Source: a virus. Taken from it: DNA of 33,750 nucleotides. Location of the stretch: positions 1 to 33,750 of the IMG/VR virus record IMGVR_UViG_3300020021_000032. One strand, 5' to 3'. Shown piece by piece: positions 3,587 to 22,287 of this stretch; the stretch's first letter is position 1; each line of letters starts with the position of its first letter. Both the position numbers and the translations under genes were made by a program. Below the pieces are notes generated by a model. That model was not told where the DNA came from. It worked only from the letters and a program-made list of their open reading frames with translations, and did not search any database.

Positions 3587-4525
3587 TCAAAGGCCTAGCA
3601 AAATGCGTATTGTCGTACTCGCCCCGTAGACCGGAGTAGGAAAAGGACTTGGAAGATTGCCCGCGCTATACGTCCAAGCTCCCGATAAATCAATCGCAAA
3701 TGCATTGGGGTCAGTGACACCCAGAAAGTTACCGGCTTCTGTGCCCACCACTACTTGGCACGCGACGCTAGCAGAACTAAATGCCACTGCGAGCCAGTAC
3801 CAGCCAACCGCTAGGGTAATAGTCTGCCCGGTTAGAGTATTGGCCACGAATGAGCTAGTGGTGACTACAGTTGAACCAAAGTCATGAAACAGAGTACCCG
3901 GTATGCCGTTGTTATTATTGTATATTCCTAGTTCAAAATTGCCCGCTCCACCTGATGTGCACCGAAAACCTATCTTTGTAAATGTTGTCGCGACCGCACA
4001 ATAAAATGGTGCGGCATACAAAATGTTGGCCGCCGTTGTTCTAGTGCCTCCAGATGAGGCATATGGGGTCCCATAAAATCGTCCCGCCTGATAACCTGGA
4101 TAGTATGGCGCTCCGCCGGGGGCAAATCCGCTAGGTGTAGTATAAGCTCCTGTTCCATCTAAGAATTTAGAAGCATCATTTGGCGCCTTGGGGGCGAAAC
4201 CGTGGCGCGCTGTCGTCACATTAAAAGTTGTCACGTCAGAAAGGTCTAGTTTACCTTCTTGGATTTTATTAGCCCCAACTGTTAGAGCCCCGCTGGCGAC
4301 AATCGTCGCGTCGCCGCTCATCGCCACGTCGGTAGCGACGTTAGAGCCGTTGCCGACGAAAATATGGTTATTCGTGAGCGCTGGCGTAGCGCTGATCGCG
4401 ACATTGGCCGCGAACGTTAGGCGGCCCTGCTGGTCCACCGTGAACTGGCCGACGTGCGTAGAATCGCCGTAGGTCGCAGGCGCAACCGCTGTGTTAGCCA
4501 GCGTGATCATGGGATTGCCCGCCAC
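3587..4525 (-). CDS. Tail fibre protein, main (C-terminal) part
   Basis: 312 residues if begun at a GTG at 4525, which has no ribosome-binding site. It opens with GNPMITLANTAVAPATYGD and HVGQFTVDQQGRLTFAANV, a common fibre repeat in which VDQQGRLT recurs across phages. The C-terminal half (LGIYNNNNGIPGTLF, VGWYWLAVAF) resembles a carbohydrate-binding-like beta sandwich seen in fibres. In the same frame upstream of the GTG the sequence reads AITVTNGSG, a natural N-terminal continuation, so this is most likely the downstream part of a frameshifted fibre whose first part is the 61-residue ORF at 4540-4725. The fibre assignment is firm; the start is not. Confidence 0.8.
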   Translation of the reverse strand: MAGNPMITLANTAVAPATYGDSTHVGQFTVDQQGRLTFAANVAISATPALTNNHIFVGNGSNVATDVAMSGDATIVASGALTVGANKIQEGKLDLSDVTTFNVTTARHGFAPKAPNDASKFLDGTGAYTTPSGFAPGGAPYYPGYQAGRFYGTPYASSGGTRTTAANILYAAPFYCAVATTFTKIGFRCTSGGAGNFELGIYNNNNGIPGTLFHDFGSTVVTTSSFVANTLTGQTITLAVGWYWLAVAFSSASVACQVVVGTEAGNFLGVTDPNAFAIDLSGAWTYSAGNLPSPFPTPVYGASTTIRILLGL

Positions 4526-4539
4526 GCCGCTGCCGTTGG

Positions 4540-4725
4540 TTACGGTGATCGCACCACCCAGGTAGAGGCGCTGGTCTGTACGAAGATGCCGGTGCCCGTG
4601 GCGAAGGGAATGGCGCTATTTATCGCCTTCTGGTTGTTCCACTTGACCAAAAACTCAGGTGTCGGCAGACCAGACTTGTCTACGATCTGGACATTCCACT
4701 GTAACGGGTTGGTAACGCCGACCAC
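4540..4725 (-). CDS. Tail fibre protein, N-terminal part (frame-shifted from the 3587-4525 gene)
   Basis: 61 residues from a GTG start directly after the hub gene. NPLQWNVQIVDKSGLPTPEF, then LVKWNNQKAIN is a frequent N-terminus of podovirus fibre proteins that attach to the tail. The end GTGIFVQTSASTWVVR normally leads into ITVTNG and GVAGNP in related fibres. Here it stops after VVRSP, while ITVTNGSGVAGNP lies in the neighbouring frame. A one-base change near the CGATCACC at about 4545-4552 would fuse the two into one protein of about 370 residues. It may be a natural break, a ribosomal shift or a sequence error. Confidence 0.7.
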   Translation of the reverse strand: MVGVTNPLQWNVQIVDKSGLPTPEFLVKWNNQKAINSAIPFATGTGIFVQTSASTWVVRSP

Positions 4726-4727
4726 GG

Positions 4728-6539
4728 CTAGCCGCCCTGCTGTCCAGAGGAGTCATCATCAAAGTCAGGCGTGAAACAATCCATCCCGTCAATTCTTACC
4801 ATCCCACCGCTATCGCTCACCTCGAATATGCGCCCTGGCAGCGCGAACGCGCCCAGCGAGCGCCACGCCACCTCTGTCACCACGCCCGCCGTCAGCGGCA
4901 CGCTGTAATAGGCGTTCCATGTCACGCCGTTGTCGTCGCTCCAGCGTAGCAGCATCGCAGAGCTAGTTGGGTTGCCGATCTTGTTAGAGGAACCAGTGAG
5001 CACCACGCTCTCAACGGAATTATAATTGCGCGAGCGCGTTTGCAGCGCGCCGGTGACGATATGCGCGATGTCCGCAGCGCCGTCATGGTCTTGCAGCGCA
5101 GAAGGCACCAGCTCCCACATGTCCGTCGTAGTGAGATCACCGCCCACGATGCGAATGCTGTTCCACTGCGTACCTGCCTGCACGTCCCATTGGCCGCTGC
5201 CCACAGTCTGGAACTGCGACCACTGCTTGGTCGTCAGATCGTAGACCCAGGTCCCCTCGGTCGAGAGGTCCAGCACGTAGAACGTGTGACCGTCCTGTGT
5301 GTAGGTCCACGCGCGCTTGCGGCTGAGCGTGAGGCCACCGCGATTGCCACCGTCACCGCCACCTCCGCCGCCTGCCGTAGCGAACCAGAGGCGCATCCAC
5401 GCCGTTAGGTTGTGATTGCCCCCAACACCCATGACGCTACCTACATAGTCTGGCGGCGACGCTCCCGCGGTGAAATGCCCGTAGAAAATGACGCTGTTCG
5501 TGGTGTCGTCTGATAATTGCACAGTGAGGCTGGTGCTGGATAGCCCTGTTACCGTCTCCGTCGTCTGCGAGCCATCAGCAGTGTTTATATGCCGCGCCAG
5601 CGAGGCGCCGTCCAGATAATGATATTTGCCGTTAACGCGGCTGAAGGTGAAGCTGTGCGGATACGGCGTCAGCAGCGTAATAGCGCGCGTCCACATGACC
5701 GCCGCAGTGGTCGCGTTGAGCTTCACGATGTATTGCTGATTGGAAACCGCGTCAGTGGTCTGTACACCGATCAGCAGATTACCGTCGCTCGCGTCGTAGG
5801 CGATACCGGCGACGCGGAAAAAGTGAGTCCACGTCGCGTCTATATTCGCAGGCGTGATACTGCCGATCTTGACAAGCGCGCCAGTCGTGAGGCGGTACAG
5901 AGACATAGAGCCGGTCGACGTGGTGGTGCCGTTGCGCCATGGTAGGCCAAGCAGGTATGCCTCATTAGCACCGCCCGGCCCGACAAGGACAGCGAAGATA
6001 GCCGGCGCTGTGTCCAGCACGCCGCAGTTCGTGTTAGCCGTGGGGCCAAACGACTCCGAAATTTCGTCAATCTCCTGCGTGCTAAGCTGCGTCGCGCACA
6101 CCAGTAGGTTAGAGCTAGGGCTGGAGACCATCTTGTCCATGGCGAGGATACGGCTGGACGTGCTAGGGGCTAGGCTTCCACTAGCCGCGCCAAATGTGCC
6201 TGTGAGCACCAAGTCTGAGGCGCGCACCTGCGCCACCTCCACGGAGTTTGAGAAATGTGAGATGAAATGGAGTTTGGTGCCGTCCGGCGTCACGCACGCC
6301 GCGCCGGGCGCTGAGCTAATACTGAACACACCAATGGAGGTGCTGGAACGCTGGAGCGTCTCATCTCCGCCGTCAATGTCGAATTGTCTCAGGCCTGGGT
6401 TAGCCCCCGCCGCCTGCAAGAAGAATACTTGGCCGCCAAGCCACACCGGCATACCTGTGGCGCTCGACACGCCTACAACGTCAGCATCCGCGCCGACGTA
6501 GGCCATCAATGTATTATTTACATAAGTTTTCGTGGTCAT
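4728..6539 (-). CDS. Tail hub protein, second part (P22 gp10-like C-terminus with large extra N-terminal domain)
   Basis: 603 residues. Residues 399-603 (RAWTYTQDGHTFYVLDL, TWVYDLTTKQWSQF, MLLRWSDDNGVTW, WRSLGAFALPGRIFEV) follow the order and motifs of the C-terminal half of packaged-DNA stabilisation proteins of the P22 gp10 type. Residues 1 to about 380 are a separate beta-rich domain with repeated strands resembling a propeller (GTKLHFISHF, DGNLLIGVQT, NGKYHYLDGA), joined by a glycine run near 385-400. The start overlaps the stop of the 6536-7810 gene by ATGA. That gene carries what looks like the N-terminal half of the same protein, so the two products probably assemble together at the tail hub. 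Confidence 0.78.
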   Translation of the reverse strand: MTTKTYVNNTLMAYVGADADVVGVSSATGMPVWLGGQVFFLQAAGANPGLRQFDIDGGDETLQRSSTSIGVFSISSAPGAACVTPDGTKLHFISHFSNSVEVAQVRASDLVLTGTFGAASGSLAPSTSSRILAMDKMVSSPSSNLLVCATQLSTQEIDEISESFGPTANTNCGVLDTAPAIFAVLVGPGGANEAYLLGLPWRNGTTTSTGSMSLYRLTTGALVKIGSITPANIDATWTHFFRVAGIAYDASDGNLLIGVQTTDAVSNQQYIVKLNATTAAVMWTRAITLLTPYPHSFTFSRVNGKYHYLDGASLARHINTADGSQTTETVTGLSSTSLTVQLSDDTTNSVIFYGHFTAGASPPDYVGSVMGVGGNHNLTAWMRLWFATAGGGGGGDGGNRGGLTLSRKRAWTYTQDGHTFYVLDLSTEGTWVYDLTTKQWSQFQTVGSGQWDVQAGTQWNSIRIVGGDLTTTDMWELVPSALQDHDGAADIAHIVTGALQTRSRNYNSVESVVLTGSSNKIGNPTSSAMLLRWSDDNGVTWNAYYSVPLTAGVVTEVAWRSLGAFALPGRIFEVSDSGGMVRIDGMDCFTPDFDDDSSGQQGG

Positions 6540-7810
6540 GCGAGACCTGCCTCACGCCGAAGCTGAGTTCTAACTCTTTCCTCGATTCCATGATCGGAAA
6601 TTCTGTGCACGCCCCACTCAGCAGTCGTACCAGCGGCGTAGCCCACCTGATAGACCACGCCGTCGTTACCAACAAGGATAACCCCGTCCTTGACCTTAAC
6701 AAGGGTGCCGTTAACCGTACCGCGAGCGTATACGCGCCCCTCAACGGGCGCGAAAGGAGCGCTGAAATTTCCGGTGGCGTACCAGTTCTCCGTGGACTCG
6801 CCGCCAGATAGCATCGTCTGATCGCCAACGGTGAGCATGTCTTCGATGTTATCGGGGTTGGACTCCTTCTCCGCGAAATTCAGCGGATCAATGACCACCT
6901 CACCCGGATTTATCCAGTAGAATTTCTGCGACTTGCCAATAGACACCAACACGTAGCCGCTGAGCGTAGCCAGGGCTTTAGGCTCCTCACCAGCTGGCAC
7001 CGGCACCTGCACGAGTGCGTGGACATTGCCGCCGGTGAGCGTGGCGCTGCCCCAGGCGAGGCTCGCGCCGCTGAAGACCGTGGTGGCGATGGCATTTCCG
7101 TCAGCATAGGGGCTGGTGGAGGTGATGTAGAGGTGTGTGGCGTCGGACGTGGCCGTGTAGTCGAGATTGGGACCATTGAGCGCCGTGCTGAAATCGGTGC
7201 CTGGGATGCCGAAGAACACGATCAGGTTGGCCATGTTGGTGAGCGCGTCCGCGCCGCCGGTGCCGACTTGAGCGAGCCATGGGTGTGCGCTGGTGCCATC
7301 CTGCGTCCCGGACGCTGGCGTGGCGCTCCAACTGTAATAAGCTGTGCCGATCTGGATCACTTGGTTGGTGATCGCGCCTGATTTAGTCAGCGTGCCGGTG
7401 GCGTGCGTGCCGCCACCGTAATACTGAAGCTGGAGACCATCAGAGATGAACAGGTATTCATAGCCGATACCTTTCATCCACGTCACATACGGGAACCCAG
7501 GATCGCCGGAATTTGGCACGTAGAGCGTACCAACGATCTGCGTCTTGGTGCCGTTCTGCGTGTAGCGCCAGAAATTAGGCCCCGCAGCGATGAAGAGATC
7601 GGAGTTCATGAAGCCAATGACGGTGTAGTAACCACGGCCTGGACCACCAGCGAACTGCGCCACGCTGTTGGTGCCCGGACGACCAATGAGAGAGATGTGC
7701 TCTCTCAAGTTTTGCGGCTCCTTCTCAAGATACCTGTTGACGAGCTTTATCTCAGGCGCATTTGTGAAATTGCGTCTATAGGAATTTGTTCCTAATGGTA
7801 CTGTAACCAT
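6536..7810 (-). CDS. Tail hub protein, first part (P22 gp10-like packaged DNA stabilisation protein)
   Basis: 424 residues. The N-terminus (NRYLEKEPQNLREHISLIGRPG), the middle (FYWINPGEVVIDPLNFAEKE) and the end (TMLSGGESTENWYATG, FAPVEGRVYARG, KDGVILVGNDGVVYQVG, HRISDHGIEERV) match the layout of P22 gp10-type proteins, which plug the portal after packaging and form the tail hub. Family members normally continue with a GHTFYVL-type segment; here that is found only in the next gene. The upstream neighbour is a gp4-like factor, as in P22. There is no strong Shine-Dalgarno, only a GAG about 11 bases before the ATG. Confidence 0.82.
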   Translation of the reverse strand: MVTVPLGTNSYRRNFTNAPEIKLVNRYLEKEPQNLREHISLIGRPGTNSVAQFAGGPGRGYYTVIGFMNSDLFIAAGPNFWRYTQNGTKTQIVGTLYVPNSGDPGFPYVTWMKGIGYEYLFISDGLQLQYYGGGTHATGTLTKSGAITNQVIQIGTAYYSWSATPASGTQDGTSAHPWLAQVGTGGADALTNMANLIVFFGIPGTDFSTALNGPNLDYTATSDATHLYITSTSPYADGNAIATTVFSGASLAWGSATLTGGNVHALVQVPVPAGEEPKALATLSGYVLVSIGKSQKFYWINPGEVVIDPLNFAEKESNPDNIEDMLTVGDQTMLSGGESTENWYATGNFSAPFAPVEGRVYARGTVNGTLVKVKDGVILVGNDGVVYQVGYAAGTTAEWGVHRISDHGIEERVRTQLRREAGLA

Positions 7811-7820
7811 TTGATTTTAC

Positions 7821-8615
7821 TCAGTAAAAGTAGCGTCCGCTGATAAAAGTTTGCAGCGAGCGCGGAATATCTCCGGAATTATAGACGGTAACGCCAGCTT
7901 GGCGATAGCGCGCCTTCAGCTTCGTCAGCATGGACTTGAACGTGTCCGCCGTAGCGACGTTGAGCACCTTGCCGTAGCGCGGCGAGATGCGGATGGCGAG
8001 CGCGCAAATCCACAGATCGTCAAAATCAGTGGGAAATGGTAGGTTATCGCTGAGCGCTAGGTCCTGGATCACCACCCAATCGCCCAGCTCCGCGCGGTAG
8101 AGCCACTGGCGCGTGGCGATGGGCTGCGTCAGCGTCTTGGTGTTGCTGCCCTCAATCGTCCGGCCGTTGCCGTCCAGCGTGAGCACAGAGAGCGGTACGC
8201 CGCCGTCGCCAGCGCCGCTACCCTGCACGACCATCATACGCGAGCCGTCGTCGGGTGCCTCTGGGAACCACGCGGTGTGCGAGACGCTGCCGAAGATGAG
8301 GCGGCTGTTCTTGGGCGGGAAAGTGTAGATCAGCAGCGACGGGTCAGCTTGGAATGGCGCCGTCGTCAACCCTCCCTGGGCATCCAGGGGATAGGGCAAC
8401 TGAGGGTAGTTTGCGCTAGTCGCCGCGGTGCGCTGTGGCGCAGGCACTGGCCAGTCCATCATCGGCTCGCCAAGCTCATGGCCGTACACGCCCATGATGT
8501 AGCGATTCAGCCGCTCCAGCGCCTCAGTCAGCTCCGCCGTCGTGGGATCGGACCCTGCCGGTATGATGTTATTTTCTCTGTAAGCGGCCTGTATAATCGT
8601 CTGTGCGGTCGTCAT
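7821..8615 (-). CDS. Tail accessory / head completion protein (P22 gp4-like)
   Basis: 264 residues. The start (TTAQTIIQAAYRENNIIPAG, then TTAELTEALERLNRYIMGVYG and ELGEPMMDWPVP) is the helical N-terminal pattern of the podovirus tail accessory factors that bind the portal and begin the tail. The end (FDDLWICALAIRISPRYGK, FKSMLTKLKARYRQ) is another conserved helical part. It overlaps the upstream small gene by ATGA and precedes the gp10-like hub, the expected order. It should act during head completion, sealing the portal and receiving the hub. Confidence 0.85.
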   Translation of the reverse strand: MTTAQTIIQAAYRENNIIPAGSDPTTAELTEALERLNRYIMGVYGHELGEPMMDWPVPAPQRTAATSANYPQLPYPLDAQGGLTTAPFQADPSLLIYTFPPKNSRLIFGSVSHTAWFPEAPDDGSRMMVVQGSGAGDGGVPLSVLTLDGNGRTIEGSNTKTLTQPIATRQWLYRAELGDWVVIQDLALSDNLPFPTDFDDLWICALAIRISPRYGKVLNVATADTFKSMLTKLKARYRQAGVTVYNSGDIPRSLQTFISGRYFY

Positions 8616-8890
8616 GCTGAGGGTGTCTTGCGGCGGAGTGTGATGGGTTTGCGTAGCGGGCTATCCGCAACAATGGAAGGGTTAAGCGCAACATCGGGCG
8701 CGGTATCCGCAACAATAGGACTTTCCCGTATCTCAGATACGTGAAAGGCGTTGTCAGGGCGCTCAGCCCAGCCCGGCGGCACGTCCTCCGGCTTGTCGAA
8801 CACTGCTGCTTGGCCGTTGGGGCCATAGCGCCACGACGGCCACTTAGGGAATGGACCTTTTGGGCGAAATGGTTCCCATGCAGATGTCAT
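8612..8890 (-). CDS. Small conserved phage structural-region protein
   Basis: 92 residues. The N-terminal half (FPKWPSWRYGPNGQAAVFDK and DVPPGWAERP) is a WRYGPNG...DVPPGW pattern that I recall from small phage proteins located between capsid and tail genes. The C-terminal half is rich in Pro, Ser and Val and looks disordered. It overlaps both neighbours by ATGA, so it is co-translated with the HNH gene before it and the gp4-like gene after it. The role is unknown; an adaptor or assembly factor is possible. Confidence 0.75.
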   Translation of the reverse strand: MTSAWEPFRPKGPFPKWPSWRYGPNGQAAVFDKPEDVPPGWAERPDNAFHVSEIRESPIVADTAPDVALNPSIVADSPLRKPITLRRKTPSA

Positions 8891-9501
8891 GGCGGGGTCT
8901 CCTTGGAACGGCTTTCAAGATCAGCTACGACCTTACGCAAGTCCGCGGCGTCCGTCAATTCGTGCTTGAGTCGGTTGGCGAGATTGCAAATGACTCTGAC
9001 GTTGCCTTTTACGTAGCCTAGCGCGGGGATGATGCGGTCCACGCTGGGACCGTGCGGATGGCGGTAGCCATCAGCGCCAAATACAAACGGCAAGCCTAGA
9101 ACGGGGCAGACAGGAGGAATAACAATGTCTGCCGCTTCCATGTTGAAAGGCAGATTCTTAGTCTTCGCGATATAACGCAGACGAGTGACGGCGCGGATAG
9201 GCCACGTAAGCGGGCTGCTCACAATCCGTTTTTGCGCAGCCTTGTTATATTTTAATGCGCACGCATTAGCTTTCGCGCGCTTCTCTGGGTCCTGCATACG
9301 TGCCGCCTGCGCAAGGCGGCGGCGCTCAAGATATGCTTCATACCGCGTCGGGTCGTCATATAGATTTTTGTAGTAAGTCTCTGACCGCTGAGCGCGGGTC
9401 TCAATGAGCTTCTTCAAACGCGCAGCGCGCTTTGCAGGATCAGCGTTTATACGTTCGCGGTAAGCTTTCTGATGCTCTCTGTTTTGTTCACGTGTCGTCA
9501 T
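8887..9501 (-). CDS. HNH endonuclease (homing or moron type)
   Basis: 204 residues. The N-terminal 90 residues are a basic helical region (YRERINADPAKRAARLKK, RRRLAQAARMQDPEKRAKAN), likely DNA binding. The nuclease core is CPVLGLPF at 132-139, then HPHGPSVDRIIPALGYVKGN (148-167) and VICNLANRLKHELTD, the SVDRI...GY..GN...ICNLAN..K pattern of phage HNH enzymes. A GGAGACAAC lies close upstream of the ATG. The gene is flanked by a terminator and its own promoter, and it separates the coat gene from the tail block, where P22-like phages have no such gene. It is therefore probably an inserted homing-type endonuclease; a role in packaging, as for HNH proteins of cos phages, is the alternative. Confidence 0.85.
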   Translation of the reverse strand: MTTREQNREHQKAYRERINADPAKRAARLKKLIETRAQRSETYYKNLYDDPTRYEAYLERRRLAQAARMQDPEKRAKANACALKYNKAAQKRIVSSPLTWPIRAVTRLRYIAKTKNLPFNMEAADIVIPPVCPVLGLPFVFGADGYRHPHGPSVDRIIPALGYVKGNVRVICNLANRLKHELTDAADLRKVVADLESRSKETPP

Positions 9502-9658: not shown

Positions 9659-10147
9659 TTAAGTGCCAGTAATTCTGGTTCCTAGGAAGCGGTCCATAAC
9701 CTCCGCCCCATATATCATGTCCCATCTGTGAACGTGCGCTCCTGTCGTGATATCCGAGCCTCGCCAGTAGCGGATAGCAATTCCAGTGTCAGGGTCAGTA
9801 GCATACGAAGCTACGCCGGTGAACGGCATCTGGAGCCGCGCGCTAACCAGCGAGATCGCCCGCTTATGGAACGCAGATCGGACGCGGCAGATAGACGAGG
9901 CCACACCAACCCACGTGATAGCGGCGCTATCGGCGGGAATGGTGCCCACAGTGCCAAAGGCGCTGTTGGCGTCAGTGCTCGTGCCGTCGCTGGTGCCCTG
10001 CACGATGATGGCCGGGCTGATGGAGACAGTCAGAAGCCCCGCACCATCAGCCACAGCATCAGCCAAAATGGTGAATTGCTGCAAGTATTCAAGCACTTGC
10101 TGATTGCGCCAGTCCCAAGCAAACACCTTGGCGATGGAGAACGGCGC
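9659..10147 (-). CDS. Major coat protein, C-terminal part (frame-shifted)
   Basis: This frame carries the C-terminal 162 or so residues of a P22-type coat protein: PFSIAKVFAWDW, then YLQQFTILADAVADGAG, SISPAIIVQGTSDG, RSAFHKRAISLVSARLQMPF, TDPDTGIAIRYWRGSD and HRWDMIYGAEVMDRFLGTRI. It is out of frame with the N-terminal part at 10089-10880. The frame stays open upstream to 10348, but that extra sequence is basic nonsense, so homology starts near 10147. Together the two parts give about 409 residues, some 20 fewer than P22 gp5 (430). A functional capsid needs both parts joined. Confidence 0.85.
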   Translation of the reverse strand, partial: APFSIAKVFAWDWRNQQVLEYLQQFTILADAVADGAGLLTVSISPAIIVQGTSDGTSTDANSAFGTVGTIPADSAAITWVGVASSICRVRSAFHKRAISLVSARLQMPFTGVASYATDPDTGIAIRYWRGSDITTGAHVHRWDMIYGAEVMDRFLGTRITGT

Positions 10148-10880
10148 GTGAGTTGACGTTCTGAGCACCGCCATTGACCTGCGAGGCGCCTGTGGCCGCG
10201 CGCGTTCCGACCGTAAGTGCCGGGCTTTGCTGCGTGGCGTACCAGTCAATTTCCGAGATGATCGGGATGCGTACACGCTCCAGCATGGAGACATTGATTT
10301 CCGGCGTGAAGCTGGACAGCAACGAGCCACGGATAGATTCGCCGTCATTGAAGGTCACTACACCGCGGAGGTCTACGTTAGGCACGCCCTGTGCCATGAG
10401 TCGCGTATGAGCGCCCATCGCCTGGGAAGGCGAAGCGATGATCTTCGTCGGGTCAGAGGTGTTGATGCCGCCTACGCCCGGCGCGCCGCCGGCAACCCAG
10501 GAGTGGAACTTGAGAGTCTGCCCGGCGATGAACTTATCTACGTCGTGCGCAAGCGTGCTCGCGACCGATTTCATGGTTTCGTTCTGCATTAGAGCGTTGA
10601 AGCTCTGCACATATTCGAGATCGCCGACGCTAATGTGGACGTTCTTGTACTGGTCCACGGTGACAGGCATAGTGCCGGTCACAAGGTCCTGCGCCTGGAG
10701 AGTGGCGCCGGTCTTAGCGACGAAGCGGGGCGGTCGCTTGACGTTGATGGTCAGGCCGTTTTCGTCGGTGACCTGATCCTTGAACTGGCCGTCTACCAAC
10801 CGGCCGTAGACCAGTTGGTTCTTGAGAAGCAAGAGCATGGAATTCGCGTACTCTTGCGCGTTGAGGAATTGGTTAGCCAC
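10089..10880 (-). CDS. Major coat protein, N-terminal part (P22 gp5-like, frame-shifted)
   Basis: It starts at GTG with GGAGG five bases upstream. Residues 1-247 are clearly coat protein: NQFLNAQEYANSMLLLLKNQ, VYGRLVDGQFKDQV, ENGLTINVKRPPRF, DLEYVQSFNALMQNETM, HTRLMAQGVPNVDLRGVV and GASQVNGGAQNVNSRAV. The last 16 or so residues (LHRQGVCLGLAQSASA) do not fit the family; the correct continuation is in the +1 frame. Related coat proteins have about 20 more residues between the NVN and FTIA segments, so a deletion of roughly 60 bases at about 10140-10150 is the simplest explanation. It lies directly downstream of the scaffold gene, as expected. Confidence 0.9.
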   Translation of the reverse strand: MANQFLNAQEYANSMLLLLKNQLVYGRLVDGQFKDQVTDENGLTINVKRPPRFVAKTGATLQAQDLVTGTMPVTVDQYKNVHISVGDLEYVQSFNALMQNETMKSVASTLAHDVDKFIAGQTLKFHSWVAGGAPGVGGINTSDPTKIIASPSQAMGAHTRLMAQGVPNVDLRGVVTFNDGESIRGSLLSSFTPEINVSMLERVRIPIISEIDWYATQQSPALTVGTRAATGASQVNGGAQNVNSRAVLHRQGVCLGLAQSASA

Positions 10881-10894
10881 AAGGGCCTCCTAGA

Positions 10895-12046
10895 TCAGTT
10901 TGGCCTCCGCTGACTGGAGTTTCGCCATCCGGCCTCTACCGCGGCAAAATCATTCGAGTCAGTCGGGACCGGGGTTGCGGTGCCGTTGCCACCACGACCC
11001 TTATATTTGGGAGGTGGTAGCGCCTTACTCGTCTTGATCTGGGGTTTATCTCCAGGGGCGCCCGACGCGGGCGGAGGAGCTAGTTCAAGCTCCTTGCGTG
11101 CAAACCATGCGCCTTGTGCCCCTTGGGACATGGCGAAAACTTTGCGCGCCTCATCTGGATGAGTCGCGAGGTGATAGAGAACTTTGTGACCTGCTTCCTT
11201 GGAAGCGAACGCAAGCTCACCTATCGTGTTGGAGAGCGGCCACGCCTCCGGCGCGTCTTGATTTTGGAGAGACCATTTCGCGCCTTCAATGACAACCTCA
11301 GAGAAATCGTCATATTCAGCAGAGCCTGCCTCTTCCAAGGCCGTCTTCTTCTGCGCGAATTCCCGTTGCTCACGGTTGGCAGCTTCGCGTTGCTGCTTGG
11401 CTTCATCTTCGCGCTTCACGACTAGAGACTCTTGGCGAGCCTCATAGCGCGCAAGCGCTCTGATGTATTGCGGGTCCATCTCCCCAAGATCAAACTTGTC
11501 AGGCTCTGGCGCACCGATGTCAGTCTCTGTAACAGCCTTAACTGGCGCTGTCAAGCGCGCTTCCAGGCGCTCCAGGCGGTCTGCCATGGTGTCCAGCGAG
11601 CGCTCCAAGGTGCGCTTGTCCTTCGTCAGCGCGGCGATGCGCTTGCCTGCCGCAGACGCGGCCATCTTCTTGGCTTCGGCGACCGTTACGGTTTTAGTGT
11701 CGTCTTCGCCTTCATCGTCTCCGTCAGAGTCGCCCCCAACATCATCAGAGCTGTCGTCGCTGCCCGCAGCTCCTTCGCCACCTGCGGTGCTTTTTGCGCC
11801 CTTTCCAGGCGTATCTCCTGCCTTAACTGCGCCATCGTTATCGTCTCCATCGGCTGCTTCCTTTGCTGCTTCCGCCACCGTCTTGGTGCCGGCCTTGCGT
11901 TCTTCCTCACTGATATTCTGCTTCGTCGGATTCAAGTTTTCGTCCTTGGGATCAAGGATTTCACCCTCGCGCGTGGTGTAGCCCTTGAACACCTTGACCT
12001 GATCTTCAAACGACGGCTGTTTTTGAACGCCATCACCAGTAGGCAT
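10895..12046 (-). CDS. Capsid scaffolding protein
   Basis: 383 residues between portal and coat genes, the normal scaffold position. Residues about 45-120 are very acidic and low in complexity (DGDDNDGAVKAGD, SDDSSDDVGGDSDGDDEGED). Then come helical coiled-coil segments (SAAGKRIAALTKDKRTLERS, TMADRLERLEARL and a second at about 190-240), and the C-terminus is Pro/Lys-rich and basic (TSKALPPPKYKGRGG). This acidic, helical, basic-end layout is typical of scaffolds that bind coat protein through the C-terminus and leave the procapsid before packaging. An AGGAG lies close upstream of the ATG. Exact family not identified. Confidence 0.82.
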   Translation of the reverse strand: MPTGDGVQKQPSFEDQVKVFKGYTTREGEILDPKDENLNPTKQNISEEERKAGTKTVAEAAKEAADGDDNDGAVKAGDTPGKGAKSTAGGEGAAGSDDSSDDVGGDSDGDDEGEDDTKTVTVAEAKKMAASAAGKRIAALTKDKRTLERSLDTMADRLERLEARLTAPVKAVTETDIGAPEPDKFDLGEMDPQYIRALARYEARQESLVVKREDEAKQQREAANREQREFAQKKTALEEAGSAEYDDFSEVVIEGAKWSLQNQDAPEAWPLSNTIGELAFASKEAGHKVLYHLATHPDEARKVFAMSQGAQGAWFARKELELAPPPASGAPGDKPQIKTSKALPPPKYKGRGGNGTATPVPTDSNDFAAVEAGWRNSSQRRPN

Positions 12047-12060
12047 GTCTCACTCTCCTG

Positions 12061-14151
12061 TTAATGGCCATCCGCGACGCGGACAGCCTCCAATCGACCA
12101 CGTAGTTCACGGTCCGCGGCCTGCGATGCCGCGCCCATAGCTTCAGTCTGCACCTTCGCCGGTGTGGCGTCGGCCTGAGCGCCAAACGAGCGCGCCCGCG
12201 CAGCGTTGAGCGCTGCCTCAGATTGCGTTTTCATGTACTTTGCTACTGCGGTCTGCATAGCGAGTTGCTCCTTCTGCCCAGCGGCCTGCTGCTGTTGCGC
12301 GGCTCCGGCCTGTTCCTCTGGCGTCATGTCCTTAGCATCCAACATACCAGGAGGCAGCGTCTTCCTCCAGCGCTTGGAGATTTCCTCCGCCATCGGCCAG
12401 TCCTGCGCCATGATGAGAAGATCAAGTATGAGCGGCGCGATCTGCGGCGCTGCGTTGATGAGCGTCATCATGTGCTCAGCAGCTTCGATGCGTTTGGTCG
12501 CGTAGCTCGCGCCGGTCGTAACTGTGACAGAGTATCGTCCCGTGCCGATGTCGATGGACGTGGGATTGTCGAAAGCGTTGATAACCTGGAGGTCCTGCTT
12601 CGCATCGACACCTAGCACCTTAATCACGCGCGGCGTGTCATAGGCGAAGGGGATAAGGTCGTTAATGACAGTACCGCACTGCTCAATCGCCTTGGTAAGG
12701 TTGTCATGATAAAGGATCGTGCCAAAATCGCTGACACGCTGACGAGCGACAATAGCTGCGCCGCTCACCTCGTTTGAGGGCATCCCAAGGTTAGCCTCGT
12801 GGATGTTGGACACGTCCTTCATGTCCTGCACGGTAAGCTGCGACTCACCCAGCAGCGAGTCCTCCATCTGCGCCGGCAAAATACGTTCTGGCTTCGCCGC
12901 TGAATCCGCGTTCCAAATCAGCAACGGATCGTCAGATAGATGTGAGTTGCGCCACGTGTTCTCGCGTCCGGCGACAGCGGTATCCGGCGCAACCCAGACC
13001 GCGCGCGGTGTCTGCATGATCTTCTCTGCGACCACGGAGCGCCAGTAGTTATGCAGGCGCTGCGGGTCCTTCAGGAAGCGGATGATGCCCCAGCGGTGCT
13101 TCCACTCGCCAACGTTGACCTCCCAGCCAGGAACTCTAAAAATGGGCACGCGCTTAATCGGCAATTCATAGGGCCCCTCCAGTATGTCGAGCCCGCTACA
13201 TAGGTACATTTGCGCGTAGCGTTCATCCACTTCGCGCATAATGGGCGTGCCGTCAGCGCGCTGGGCGATGCCGGATAAGATTCTTGCTTGCTCATTTCCA
13301 TCTGCCTCCTCCCAAGAATCAGTGATGTCAACTACGGAACCATCCAACATGAGCGCCTTGGTGCGCTTGCGTGTTCGCATCCGCCAGTATGAGACTACAC
13401 GCACGTCGTCCACGGCAATCCAGCCGTTCATGCGCAGATCGCCGCGCAGCGTCACATCCGTCACCACGTCGGAAGCAGTAGCCCACGGCCAAAGGCGGTA
13501 GAAATCGCGTTTGGTGAGTGTGTCGATGAGGAAGACATGTCTGGCATCTGCGCCGGTTGGATCGTTGAGCATCCGGTCCCACACAACAGCAAGGGCGTCG
13601 TTAATGGCCGTGATGCGAATCTCTTGGTCGAACACATCGTCCGACTCGTAGTCCAGCTCTACCTGGAAATTGCCGATGCCGCAGATAACTTGGTTCTCTA
13701 GCGCCTTGTCGAACGCCAGCTCCGCGCGGCTGATCTTCTGGATGGAGCGCATAAGCCCCTCGCGCACGCGAGCAACCTGCACCGTACCGCCATTGTCGGC
13801 TGCGACTTTGATGCTAGTTTCGTTCATGCGCCGCTGGCCCACGACCTGGGACACGAACGCCGGAAGGCGGTTAACGGTCAGAACAGGCTTGCGCGCGGCC
13901 TCGCGGCGCTGACGCACGATATCGTCCCACTGGTCAGCTACCATGAAGCGCATGTCTTCGAGCGCCGCTTCGCGGTTTAGCCGGTCGTACTGCACGTCGT
14001 CATAAAAATCTTTGCGCATCGTAGAGAGGAAAGACGCCTCATCCTCGAAATCCTCCGGAATCTCGAATTGCGGACGATTACTGTACGGCTGACGGTAATC
14101 GTCATTGCGCGCGGGCGACACGAGGACGTGTGAGGCAAGATTTCCTAGCAT
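12061..14151 (-). CDS. Portal protein (P22 gp1-like)
   Basis: 696 residues, close to P22 gp1 (725). The N-terminus (FEDEASFLSTMRKDFYDDVQ, then MVADQWDDIVRQRREAARKP, LTVNRLPAFVSQVVGQRRMN) is the characteristic portal opening. It continues with wing and stem segments (VICGIGNFQVELDY, VVWDRMLNDPTGADARHVFL, RVPIFRVPGWEV, FLKDPQRLHNYWRS, HEANLGMPSNEVSGAAIVAR). The C-terminus is a long Ala/Gln-rich helix like the portal barrel. TerL stops immediately before its ATG (TAGATG). It forms the dodecameric ring at the capsid vertex through which DNA enters and leaves. Confidence 0.93.
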   Translation of the reverse strand: MLGNLASHVLVSPARNDDYRQPYSNRPQFEIPEDFEDEASFLSTMRKDFYDDVQYDRLNREAALEDMRFMVADQWDDIVRQRREAARKPVLTVNRLPAFVSQVVGQRRMNETSIKVAADNGGTVQVARVREGLMRSIQKISRAELAFDKALENQVICGIGNFQVELDYESDDVFDQEIRITAINDALAVVWDRMLNDPTGADARHVFLIDTLTKRDFYRLWPWATASDVVTDVTLRGDLRMNGWIAVDDVRVVSYWRMRTRKRTKALMLDGSVVDITDSWEEADGNEQARILSGIAQRADGTPIMREVDERYAQMYLCSGLDILEGPYELPIKRVPIFRVPGWEVNVGEWKHRWGIIRFLKDPQRLHNYWRSVVAEKIMQTPRAVWVAPDTAVAGRENTWRNSHLSDDPLLIWNADSAAKPERILPAQMEDSLLGESQLTVQDMKDVSNIHEANLGMPSNEVSGAAIVARQRVSDFGTILYHDNLTKAIEQCGTVINDLIPFAYDTPRVIKVLGVDAKQDLQVINAFDNPTSIDIGTGRYSVTVTTGASYATKRIEAAEHMMTLINAAPQIAPLILDLLIMAQDWPMAEEISKRWRKTLPPGMLDAKDMTPEEQAGAAQQQQAAGQKEQLAMQTAVAKYMKTQSEAALNAARARSFGAQADATPAKVQTEAMGAASQAADRELRGRLEAVRVADGH

Positions 14152-15777
14152 CTAAGTTCCCATCCAGCCATATCCGCCGCCTCCAACCCACACAGGTGGC
14201 GCGTATTCCTGCGCTACTTGCCCAGGCATGTCAAGATTTCCGAACTGCCCCGCGGTTTTAGGCTCTGTATAATCCTGGAGAAACTCATTCGATGCAAACG
14301 TGAGAACCACGGAATCGGCGAGATCAGGCGATTTGACACCACGTTTACGCATTTCGTGCTTGGCTTCGAGCAAAACATCGTTATTTAGCTGCGGCTTCTG
14401 CCGCGGCGCCGTCAAATCTGTCTGGAGCGCATCGTCATCAGGCAGCTGCACGCCTTCTTCCAGCTCCAGCCAGTCCCGGCAGCGCATCCACATCTCCGCG
14501 CGGCGATTCTTCGGCCCTGCCACCTTCGGGCGCGCTATTTTGGCCTCCGATGGAGACCCAAAGTTCACGCCGCGGACAACTTTCGCATATCCAGGGCCAA
14601 TGCTCTTGAGATTGGTGACAATCGCAGAGCCTATATTTCCGGAATCTATGTTCACTCTTGCCGGATTCATCTCGTCTATGACTGCTCGCACCCACGTCGT
14701 GCCCTCCAATGTGTTAAGGTTGCTCCTGTGGCGCGTCCACAGCACGCGCAAACCACGGCGCGCGGAGATCGCAAAGCGGTCGCCCGTGCTCGCCGGGTCC
14801 ACGCCCAGGATGAGCGGCCCAGCGGCCGGCGCGATGCGCTTACGGGCGCGAATGACGTTGAGCGCGGAGATGAACGGCGTCATGCCCGGCGGCGCGGTCC
14901 ACGCCTCGCTGGGTTGCGCGGGAAATTCGCGTTGGAACAACACGGGATCGCGGATTTCGATGAGCTTGTAGCGCCGCCAGCACATGTTGGCGAGCGGCAC
15001 CCTGTAAACATCGGAATATTCCTGCTCGCTCATCTCGCCCTCAGATTCTTCTTGTGAGAGAACGAATCCGGGCGGCGGAGCGCGCGCGTACTCAGGCTTC
15101 AGCCACCACTGAAGGAAGATAGGGATGTAATCGCCCTTCCCGGCTTCTGCGTCCTGCCAGCGCTCGTAAAACTCACCCCCGGCGCCAGCGCTAGTACTCT
15201 CCAAGATAACCTCAGAACCAGGAGCGAGAGGGACGGCTTGGACAGAGGCAGCAAAGTGATCTGGCGCGTTGGTCCAAAAGGCGACTTCTGAACCGTGGAA
15301 GAGAAGAATTGATTTTGAGCGTCCAACAGCTTTAGCACCGGCCGTTGCCACAGCATACGAGGACTCCAAAAGGTCGAAAACCAGCTCTTTTGCATTGTCT
15401 TCTCCGACGTGGGGGCGAAGCGCGTTGTAGCGCTGGAAACGGTCTACCATGCCGAACAGCGTGTCAGACGCGCCCTGCTCATGCGCGAGGATGAACACAT
15501 TGATGCCGAAGCTCAGCGAGGCGCGGTGATAGTAGCGAGCAGCTGTGTAAGAGCTTGCGCCCTGCTGCCGGCCCTTCAAAATAATGGCGCGAACCCAGCC
15601 CTTTTCCTTGCGCTGTTTCTCAACTGCTTCGTGAATCAGTTTTTGAGAGGCGTTTAGTGAAAACGGCACGATTTCGCCAGTTTCAGCGCGAACCTTCAAA
15701 TATTCTTTAGCAAACAGCTCAAATTGCCCTTGCAGAGCCTCAAGCTCGTCAAGTTTCGCGGCTTCTTCATCCATCAT
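14152..15777 (-). CDS. Terminase large subunit
   Basis: 541 residues from ATG 15777 (MMDEEAAKLDELEAL), preceded by a GGAG 11 bases upstream. The frame is open back to a TTG at 15876, but those codons lack a ribosome site. ATPase: Walker A KGRQQGASS near 68-76, a Walker B region ILLFHGSEVAFW near 157-168, and coupling motif ILESTSAG near 191-198. Nuclease: LGVDPASTGD (Asp near 327), NIDSGNIGSA (Asp near 378) and SPDLADSVVLTF (Asp near 485 and 488). The product is the motor and headful or cos nuclease that fills the procapsid through the portal encoded next. Confidence 0.95.
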   Translation of the reverse strand: MMDEEAAKLDELEALQGQFELFAKEYLKVRAETGEIVPFSLNASQKLIHEAVEKQRKEKGWVRAIILKGRQQGASSYTAARYYHRASLSFGINVFILAHEQGASDTLFGMVDRFQRYNALRPHVGEDNAKELVFDLLESSYAVATAGAKAVGRSKSILLFHGSEVAFWTNAPDHFAASVQAVPLAPGSEVILESTSAGAGGEFYERWQDAEAGKGDYIPIFLQWWLKPEYARAPPPGFVLSQEESEGEMSEQEYSDVYRVPLANMCWRRYKLIEIRDPVLFQREFPAQPSEAWTAPPGMTPFISALNVIRARKRIAPAAGPLILGVDPASTGDRFAISARRGLRVLWTRHRSNLNTLEGTTWVRAVIDEMNPARVNIDSGNIGSAIVTNLKSIGPGYAKVVRGVNFGSPSEAKIARPKVAGPKNRRAEMWMRCRDWLELEEGVQLPDDDALQTDLTAPRQKPQLNNDVLLEAKHEMRKRGVKSPDLADSVVLTFASNEFLQDYTEPKTAGQFGNLDMPGQVAQEYAPPVWVGGGGYGWMGT

Positions 15778-15917
15778 GAAGAGATGGACTCCGCCGGGGC
15801 TATGTGCTTGGGGAAGCAGCTGAGCACTGCGCCTAGGGAGAAGCGGCGCGTCCGGCGGGTCCAAAGCGGGAGACAACCGCTGAGCATGACGCTACATCCC
15901 CTATAAAGCGCTGTCAA

Positions 15918-21480: not shown

Positions 21481-22287
21481 GTGATTGAGATTAAGAACCG
21501 GTACACAGGCGCCGTCGTAATGACTGTAGATTGCGCCGACCTCAGCGGCGCCGACCTCAGCGGCGCCGACCTCAGCGGCGCCAACCTCAGGCACGCCTAC
21601 CTCAGCGGCGCCGACCTCAGCGGCGCCGACCTCAGCGGCGCCGACCTCAGCGGCGCCGACCTCAGCGGCGCCTACCTCAGCGGCGCCGACCTCAGCGGCG
21701 CCGACCTCAGCGGCGCCGACCTCAGCGGCGCCTACCTCAGCGGCGCCGACCTCAGCGGCGCCAACCTCAGGCACGCCTACCTCAGCGGCGCCGACCTCAG
21801 CGGCGCCAACCTCAGGCACGCCTACCTCAGCGGCGCCTACCTCAGCGGCGCCGACCTCAGCGGCGCCGACCTCAGCGGCGCCGACCTCAGCGGCGCCGAC
21901 CTCAGCGGCGCCGACCTCAGCGGCGCCTACCTCAGCGGCGCCAACCTCAGGCGCGCCTTGAATGCAGAGTTAGCTATCGCCATGACAGTTATCGTCCCGC
22001 AAGGTGCTCTCATCGTTTGGAAGAAAGCGCGCGGCGGAGTCATTGTGAAGCTTCGCATCCCCGAAACTGCGCGACGCTCTAGTGCCACTGGCCGCAAGTG
22101 TCGCGCAGAGTTTGCAGAGGTACTTGAGCTTTCAGAAGGCACGGAAACCATGTCGCAGCATATGTTAGGGTTCATATACCGCGTCGGAGAAACCGTGCGT
22201 TGCGACGCCTGGTGCGAAGATCGCTGGCAGGAATGTGCTGGCGGTATCCATTTTTACTTAACACGTGAAGAGGCTGAGGCACACTAA
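21481..22287 (+). CDS. Pentapeptide-repeat protein with DUF5758-like C-terminus
   Basis: 268 residues from a GTG preceded by AAAGGAGACAAC. Residues about 20-160 are 28 successive A(D/N/Y)LxG-type pentapeptides ([15 protein letters not shown]), which fold into a right-handed quadrilateral helix that can mimic DNA. The last 100 residues ([74 protein letters not shown]) match a domain I know as DUF5758, common after pentapeptides in phages. A role as gyrase or nuclease decoy is possible but not shown. It overlaps the next gene by one base (TAATG). Confidence 0.88.
21537..21956 (+). repeat. 28 tandem 15-base units (GACCTCAGCGGCGCC type)
   Basis: The pentapeptide region is built from nearly identical 15-base units; most copies are exact and variants change only one or a few bases (GAC to TAC or AAC, or AGCGGC to AGGCAC). 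Such identity is greater than needed for the protein and indicates recent expansion by slippage or recombination, so copy number may vary. Confidence 0.9.

Follow-up and report, generated by a model that had tools for sequence, protein, structure and literature searches.

In the 33,750-nucleotide viral DNA analysed here (the window), a tail hub, or nozzle, of the P22 gp10 type is encoded by two genes, A and B, and a break at the same place is found in all 65 loci of one clade of contigs from uncultured short-tailed phages, the window included. Judged by their sequences, the two products are complementary parts of one hub, with no portion missing or doubled. The whole explanation that we regard as the best, with a probability of about 0.72, is that the gene was split once in an ancestor of this lineage, that the products of A and B fold together, and that the site of the split serves as a socket for exchangeable modules. 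Gp10-type nozzles are among the most conserved proteins of podoviruses, and hold the gate that retains the DNA in the head. Queries of the cultured phages in INPHARED (five from the split clade and one single-chain) returned single-chain relatives only, and no split nozzle was found in the literature searched, the scope of which stopped short of subscription papers and preprints.

Gene A (6536..7810, minus strand, 424 aa) encodes the N-terminal part of the hub, with the predicted platform strands and blades 1-5, and gene B (4728..6539, minus strand, 603 aa) encodes a propeller module, a linker and the C-terminal part. The stop codon of A and the start codon of B share a 4-nt ATGA overlap (6536..6539, minus strand), and a weak Shine-Dalgarno-like stretch, GAGGCAGGT (6545..6553, minus strand), lies upstream of the start of B. 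The initial annotation of this DNA had described a gp10-like hub split over two genes of 424 and 603 residues, joined by an ATGA overlap, with a beta-rich domain and then a glycine linker at the beginning of the second; the open reading frames, their lengths and the overlap are as it described them, residues ~1-390 of B are beta-rich, and the linker (residues 391-404, GGGGGGDGGNRGG, 5328..5369, minus strand) is rich in glycine. PHROG_578, which is head closure Hc3, the P22 gp10 family (profile length 486), matches both products: A with E 1e-22, reaching profile position 279, and residues 405-574 of B with E 2e-18, at positions 286-452 of 486. On a 456-state HMM built from 18 single-chain gp10s, A occupies 1-263 and B 268-434, and the six frames of the window contain no match to it beyond A and B. 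P22 gp10 gives a single match to the same HMM as one chain of 472 aa (E 2e-32), in agreement with its earlier description as one polypeptide.

The hhalign comparison, with a 461-column profile of single-chain gp10s that has P22 gp10 among its sequences, bears on the two points on which the initial annotation had staked its reading. The C-terminus of B is indeed related to gp10 (residues ~410-595, columns 274-453 of 461, probability 99.8%, E 6.5e-30), and A is not a full-length gp10, being aligned with columns 6-270 only (probability 100%, E 9e-47); the two jointly cover the full profile and neither alone does so. Together with PHROG_578, this comparison assigns residues 405-603 of B (4731..5327, minus strand) to the C-terminal hub part, with the predicted blades 6-7 and C-terminal platform. 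In terms of P22 gp10 (PDB 8eap, 8u10), A and the C-part of B align with residues 6-283 and 289-471.

The two genes sit within a morphogenesis cluster of the P22 type. The large terminase (14152-15876) is followed in cluster order by the portal (12061-14151; Pfam P22_portal, E 1.7e-141), the scaffold (10895-12046), the coat gene (about 9659-10880, minus strand; PHROG_283), a predicted endonuclease gene (8887-9501, minus strand; endonuclease VII/HNH-type PHROGs) and a weakly gp4-like gene (7821-8615; the match is weak), which comes directly before A. Beyond B lie a gene in the needle/fibre position, with no assigned function (3587-4730, minus strand), and then an ejection protein (983-1543). The succession portal, scaffold, coat, gp4-like, gp10 is that of P22, and the split hub occupies the position after the gp4-like adaptor gene that the gp10 family has in this comparison. 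The hub is gp10 by sequence, fold and gene order, yet it lacks the single polypeptide of that family, with two open reading frames in the window and in all 65 loci of the clade. The gene after B, a single open reading frame in two relatives (L002 and L003), is here broken into two frames, possibly by an assembly indel, and the coat gene matches its profile in one frame at 1-240 and in a second frame at 270-383, which suggests another frameshift in the contig. Because of these probable frameshifts, the evidence from this single contig is weak, and the case for the split rests on the clade.

The relatives come from scans of IMG/VR viral contigs; B alone as query gave no match there, and an alignment of C-parts was needed as query to find the C-part relatives. 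A split shared by related phages, which the initial annotation had proposed to look for, was found in 65 loci that each have their own C-part protein, counting the window; removal of near-copies leaves 55. In every one of these loci that is readable in full for both, the A part and the C part are in different open reading frames, and in all 65 the break falls at about position 262-268 of the HMM (about residues 283-289 in P22 gp10 numbering), between the predicted blades 5 and 6 of a 7-bladed propeller. Two layouts exist. Seventeen of the 65 loci, among them the window, have A followed by a B gene with an N-terminal extension of about 228-420 residues; the other layout (48/65), a feature absent from the initial annotation, has A and a C gene of 243-426 aa set apart by 1.0-4.6 kb of DNA, in most cases a single long open reading frame. 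One locus (L138:4082-8539) has three open reading frames of 727, 439 and 314 aa between the hub halves, as against the usual one.

On a quick tree of the concatenated cores, all the split loci are on one side of one branch (SH-aLRT 100, length 0.6), and the two- or three-gene state changes about 6 times. An intact gp10 was not found in the 18 records of 33-50 kb that were searched whole with PHROG_578, each of which contains a single N part and a single C part; the idea of a hidden intact copy was rejected accordingly. Two viral scans seeded on single-chain relatives returned single chains, with no large insert at the split site in any of them, and again split loci solely from the known clade. 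No C-part relative was found in the GTDB genomes, hence no named host. The comparison across the clade establishes the split, its site and its single origin, the independence of the genes and the recurrent exchange of modules.

The model of A (AlphaFold, pLDDT 70.7, from an alignment of 12 sequences) allows a reading as five blades of four strands each, with residues 1-49 disordered. Its best structural match is the hub of the cyanophage Pan3 (Z 23.8), followed by P22 gp10 (8eap; Z 21.3, 2.2 A over 203 residues) and the Pam1 hub (Z 20.8), with the Sf6 hub also matched; unrelated propellers score well below these hubs (Z 14-16). The nozzle propeller fold is thus seen in A over the N-terminal blades, the C part being modelled at low confidence only. 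The gene also encodes an extra domain of its own, of ~130 residues, not noticed in the initial annotation (residues ~132-262, 7025..7417, minus strand), which appears as a gap in the hmm match of A and, by the order of strands in the model, lies between the predicted blades 2 and 3. In the alignment A2 this domain has been lost in L014 and L016 and is present in extra tandem copies in L007, L009 and L012. Gene A of L060 reaches 829 aa. A likeness between the A insert and the genes inserted between the halves was suspected by eye, and phmmer gave no support for it at E 1e-3.

The extension of B (residues ~9-390, 5370..6515, minus strand) is predicted to be a second 7-bladed beta-propeller, of the WD40/YVTN type, carried on the glycine linker. 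VIA-align superposes 292-310 of its residues on WD40 and YVTN-type propellers with Z ~20-21 and rmsd 3.4-4.5 A, and phmmer gives E 1.3e-6 for its match to 1l0q, a YVTN surface-layer protein from an archaeon. The model of B has an overall pLDDT of 58.6, which is moderate to low: moderate over the propeller, and low over the isolated C-part. No Pfam or PHROG family matches the extension at E 0.05 and, as the fold call rests on prediction, we speak of a propeller-like domain and not of a member of a named family. The low confidence of the isolated halves would be expected if each chain needs the other, and may also be due to the shallow alignments alone (12 sequences for A and 16 for B).

The same extension family as in the window is found in five other loci (L003, L005, L006, L014 and L041). 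The extensions of L007, L016, L084/L094, L093, L102 and L081 gave no hhalign alignment to this family or to each other, and some of these families could share the propeller fold beyond detection. Exchange is seen in a pair of loci, L093 and L103. They share 5.2 kb of DNA at 93% identity, a stretch that stops at nt 5801 of L093, six bases short of where A ends; beyond it come 1190 and 671 unrelated bases, respectively, and the likeness returns (86-89%) at the hub part of B. On the DNA sequences, this difference is a clean cassette swap. Compared with L093, L102 is 93% identical in the A part and 90% in the C part, and it shares its layout and lengths with L103. A further locus, L081, is a fusion, the extension of which matches the start and the end of a lectin-type insert gene and then runs into the C part, which illustrates one route connecting the three-gene and two-gene layouts.

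The intervening genes of the three-gene loci have a recurrent character of their own. A Laminin-G/ConA-like domain is usual in the 48 intervening genes, and the same LamG-type family recurs across the clade; Laminin_G_3 (a ConA-like lectin domain) is matched in the inserted genes of L002 (E 3.6e-10) and L008 (E 2.9e-12), and PHROG_2448 by these two genes and by the shorter insert of L113. Taken together, the swapping of unrelated modules between hubs that are otherwise almost the same, and the lectin domains at the same site, suggest a function in binding to the host surface. We infer that the adsorption role once tentatively proposed for the added domain of B is made more likely by this cassette swapping and by the lectin-type domains of the relatives. 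In three loci the first ~80 residues encoded by the C gene are made up of three or four short repeats of the TxQxxxLVxY type, ahead of the gp10 part (L002:9428-9676, L009:6065-6316 and L012:9876-10127); these repeats perhaps dock the product of the inserted gene.

Our explanation would run as follows. A single-chain gp10/nozzle gene would have been split once, in the ancestor of the lineage, in the loop between the predicted blades 5 and 6, so that A would give the N-terminal platform strands and blades 1-5, and B (or the third open reading frame in the relatives) would give blades 6-7 and the C-terminal platform. The two products would fold together in trans as an obligate heterodimer, six A:B pairs making an otherwise P22-like hub, and translational coupling, by ATGA or TAATG, would keep their amounts matched. 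The N-terminus freed by the split would be the socket: a foreign domain could be fused there without threading the chain through the propeller or, alternatively, a separate gene could be placed between the halves. In this phage the module would be the second beta-propeller on its glycine linker, and its most likely role would be host-surface attachment or the anchoring of a fibre. The co-folding, the stoichiometry, the outward position of the module and its part in adsorption are what we infer from the sequences and models. In the T7 nozzle the 45-residue N-terminus provides three strands of the platform barrel, the bulk of which is C-terminal, in the cited part of the structural report (PMC6702177). 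If this arrangement holds here, residues 1-49 of A would pair with B, and their disorder when A is modelled by itself would be accounted for. The cited section on SU10 places blades 4-6 along the channel (PMC9509320), so that an outward-facing connection between blades 5 and 6 cannot be taken for granted.

The reading most directly opposed to two chains is that A and B are really one, joined by a programmed frameshift or separated by a sequencing indel, the product being a single gp10 with an inserted propeller domain. The 4-nt overlap of the two frames fits this, as do the frameshifts that the coat gene and the gene after B probably contain. However, the junctions of A and B differ among the loci (overlaps of 4 nt, ATGA, of 1 nt, TAATG, or of 13 nt, a 1-nt gap, and a 24-nt gap with AGGAGG in L016 and L018), and Shine-Dalgarno-like matches of at least 4 nt precede 59% of the B starts and 38% of the C starts, as compared with 14% of internal ATG/GTG codons. 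The varied junctions, these sites and the genes between the halves argue against a programmed frameshift; the recurrence of the same break in independent contigs, and again the whole genes between the halves in 48 loci, led us to reject a sequencing error. We find the one-chain reading scarcely credible. It is improbable, if less extremely so, that B (or the C gene) has left the hub and become a separate adhesin reusing the C-terminal domain of gp10, with A alone forming the ring. B is far larger than the part that gp10 would be missing, and the A and C parts are encoded apart, as one would expect from this; yet A has no sequence for two propeller blades and the C-terminal platform, the latter contacts the adaptor in T7 in the cited part of the report (PMC6702177), and the C part retains the hub motifs across the clade, motifs that no other protein in the records supplies.

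Other doubts concern the modules. The split and the heterodimer may be real, and yet the N-terminal modules may be there for assembly, for stability or for gating of the channel instead of adsorption, since propellers are common protein-protein scaffolds, the present data do not fix the position of the module on the hub, and the adaptor and the needle also bind the nozzle. We consider this unlikely, though a serious competitor: the fast swapping of unrelated modules on a nearly identical hub, and the lectin-type domains of the inserted genes, fit parts that interact with the host better than conserved assembly parts. That the inserts and extensions are selfish or chance insertions, relics of homing elements for example, merely tolerated by the split, could be argued from the predicted endonuclease gene nearby (8887-9501). 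We think it very improbable, as the inserts retain long open frames in a coupled layout and genes of one LamG-type family are found repeatedly across the clade; an intein or homing insert at the split was rejected, since the inserts tested contain no endonuclease or intein domain. The split nozzle with exchangeable modules remains our preferred reading. In its strongest form, the nozzle would be six obligate heterodimers in which the cut is used as a plug-in socket, exchanging propellers, lectin-like domains or lectin genes to change what the tail binds. We hold this form only tentatively, at somewhat less than even odds. If it is true, phages would have a second means of varying host recognition, built into the DNA gate itself and not into fibres or spikes.

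Several known hubs help to situate this one. P22 gp10 is a single 472-aa chain that lacks these inserts, unlike the two genes, the A insert and the propeller module at the start of B described here. The Pan3 and Pam1 hubs (9vyg, 7eeq), which provide the best structural matches of A, are close relatives of our single-chain outgroup (Pan3 is 48% identical to L019), but they are single chains of about 445 aa. The nozzles of SU10 and T7 (7z4b; 6r21) are likewise 7-bladed propellers. SU10 has several Ig-like nozzle domains between blades 2 and 3 (PMC9509320), which is also where A has its repeated insert; the cited sections on both nozzles describe single chains, with no blade 5-6 insertion and no split. 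Among reported oddities, the dual tubeA of PhiGT1 comes nearest: it too is an altered hub of a short-tailed phage, has gained a gene and is passed on through an entire lineage (PMC10386132). The hub gene affected and the kind of change are not the same, however. In PhiGT1 it is the adaptor gene (tubeA), present in two copies diverged by recombination (PMC10386132), and in our clade it is the nozzle gene (tubeB, gp10), divided into two parts that complement each other. A lineage with a permanently two-chain nozzle would show the assembly of a propeller in trans in a virion and would be a natural split-protein system for the study of gate opening, and the split points to an interchangeable module on the hub. 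Both halves will be mislabelled by annotation pipelines that look for a single gp10, and the tail hubs of these uncultured phages may be overlooked.

Two minor observations concern other genes. In the relatives, the product of the gene after B shares a conserved N-terminus like 'NPLxWNVPIVDKxGLPTPEFxRKW'. The early region of the window encodes a pentapeptide-repeat protein of 268 aa with GADLS repeats (21481-22287, plus strand).
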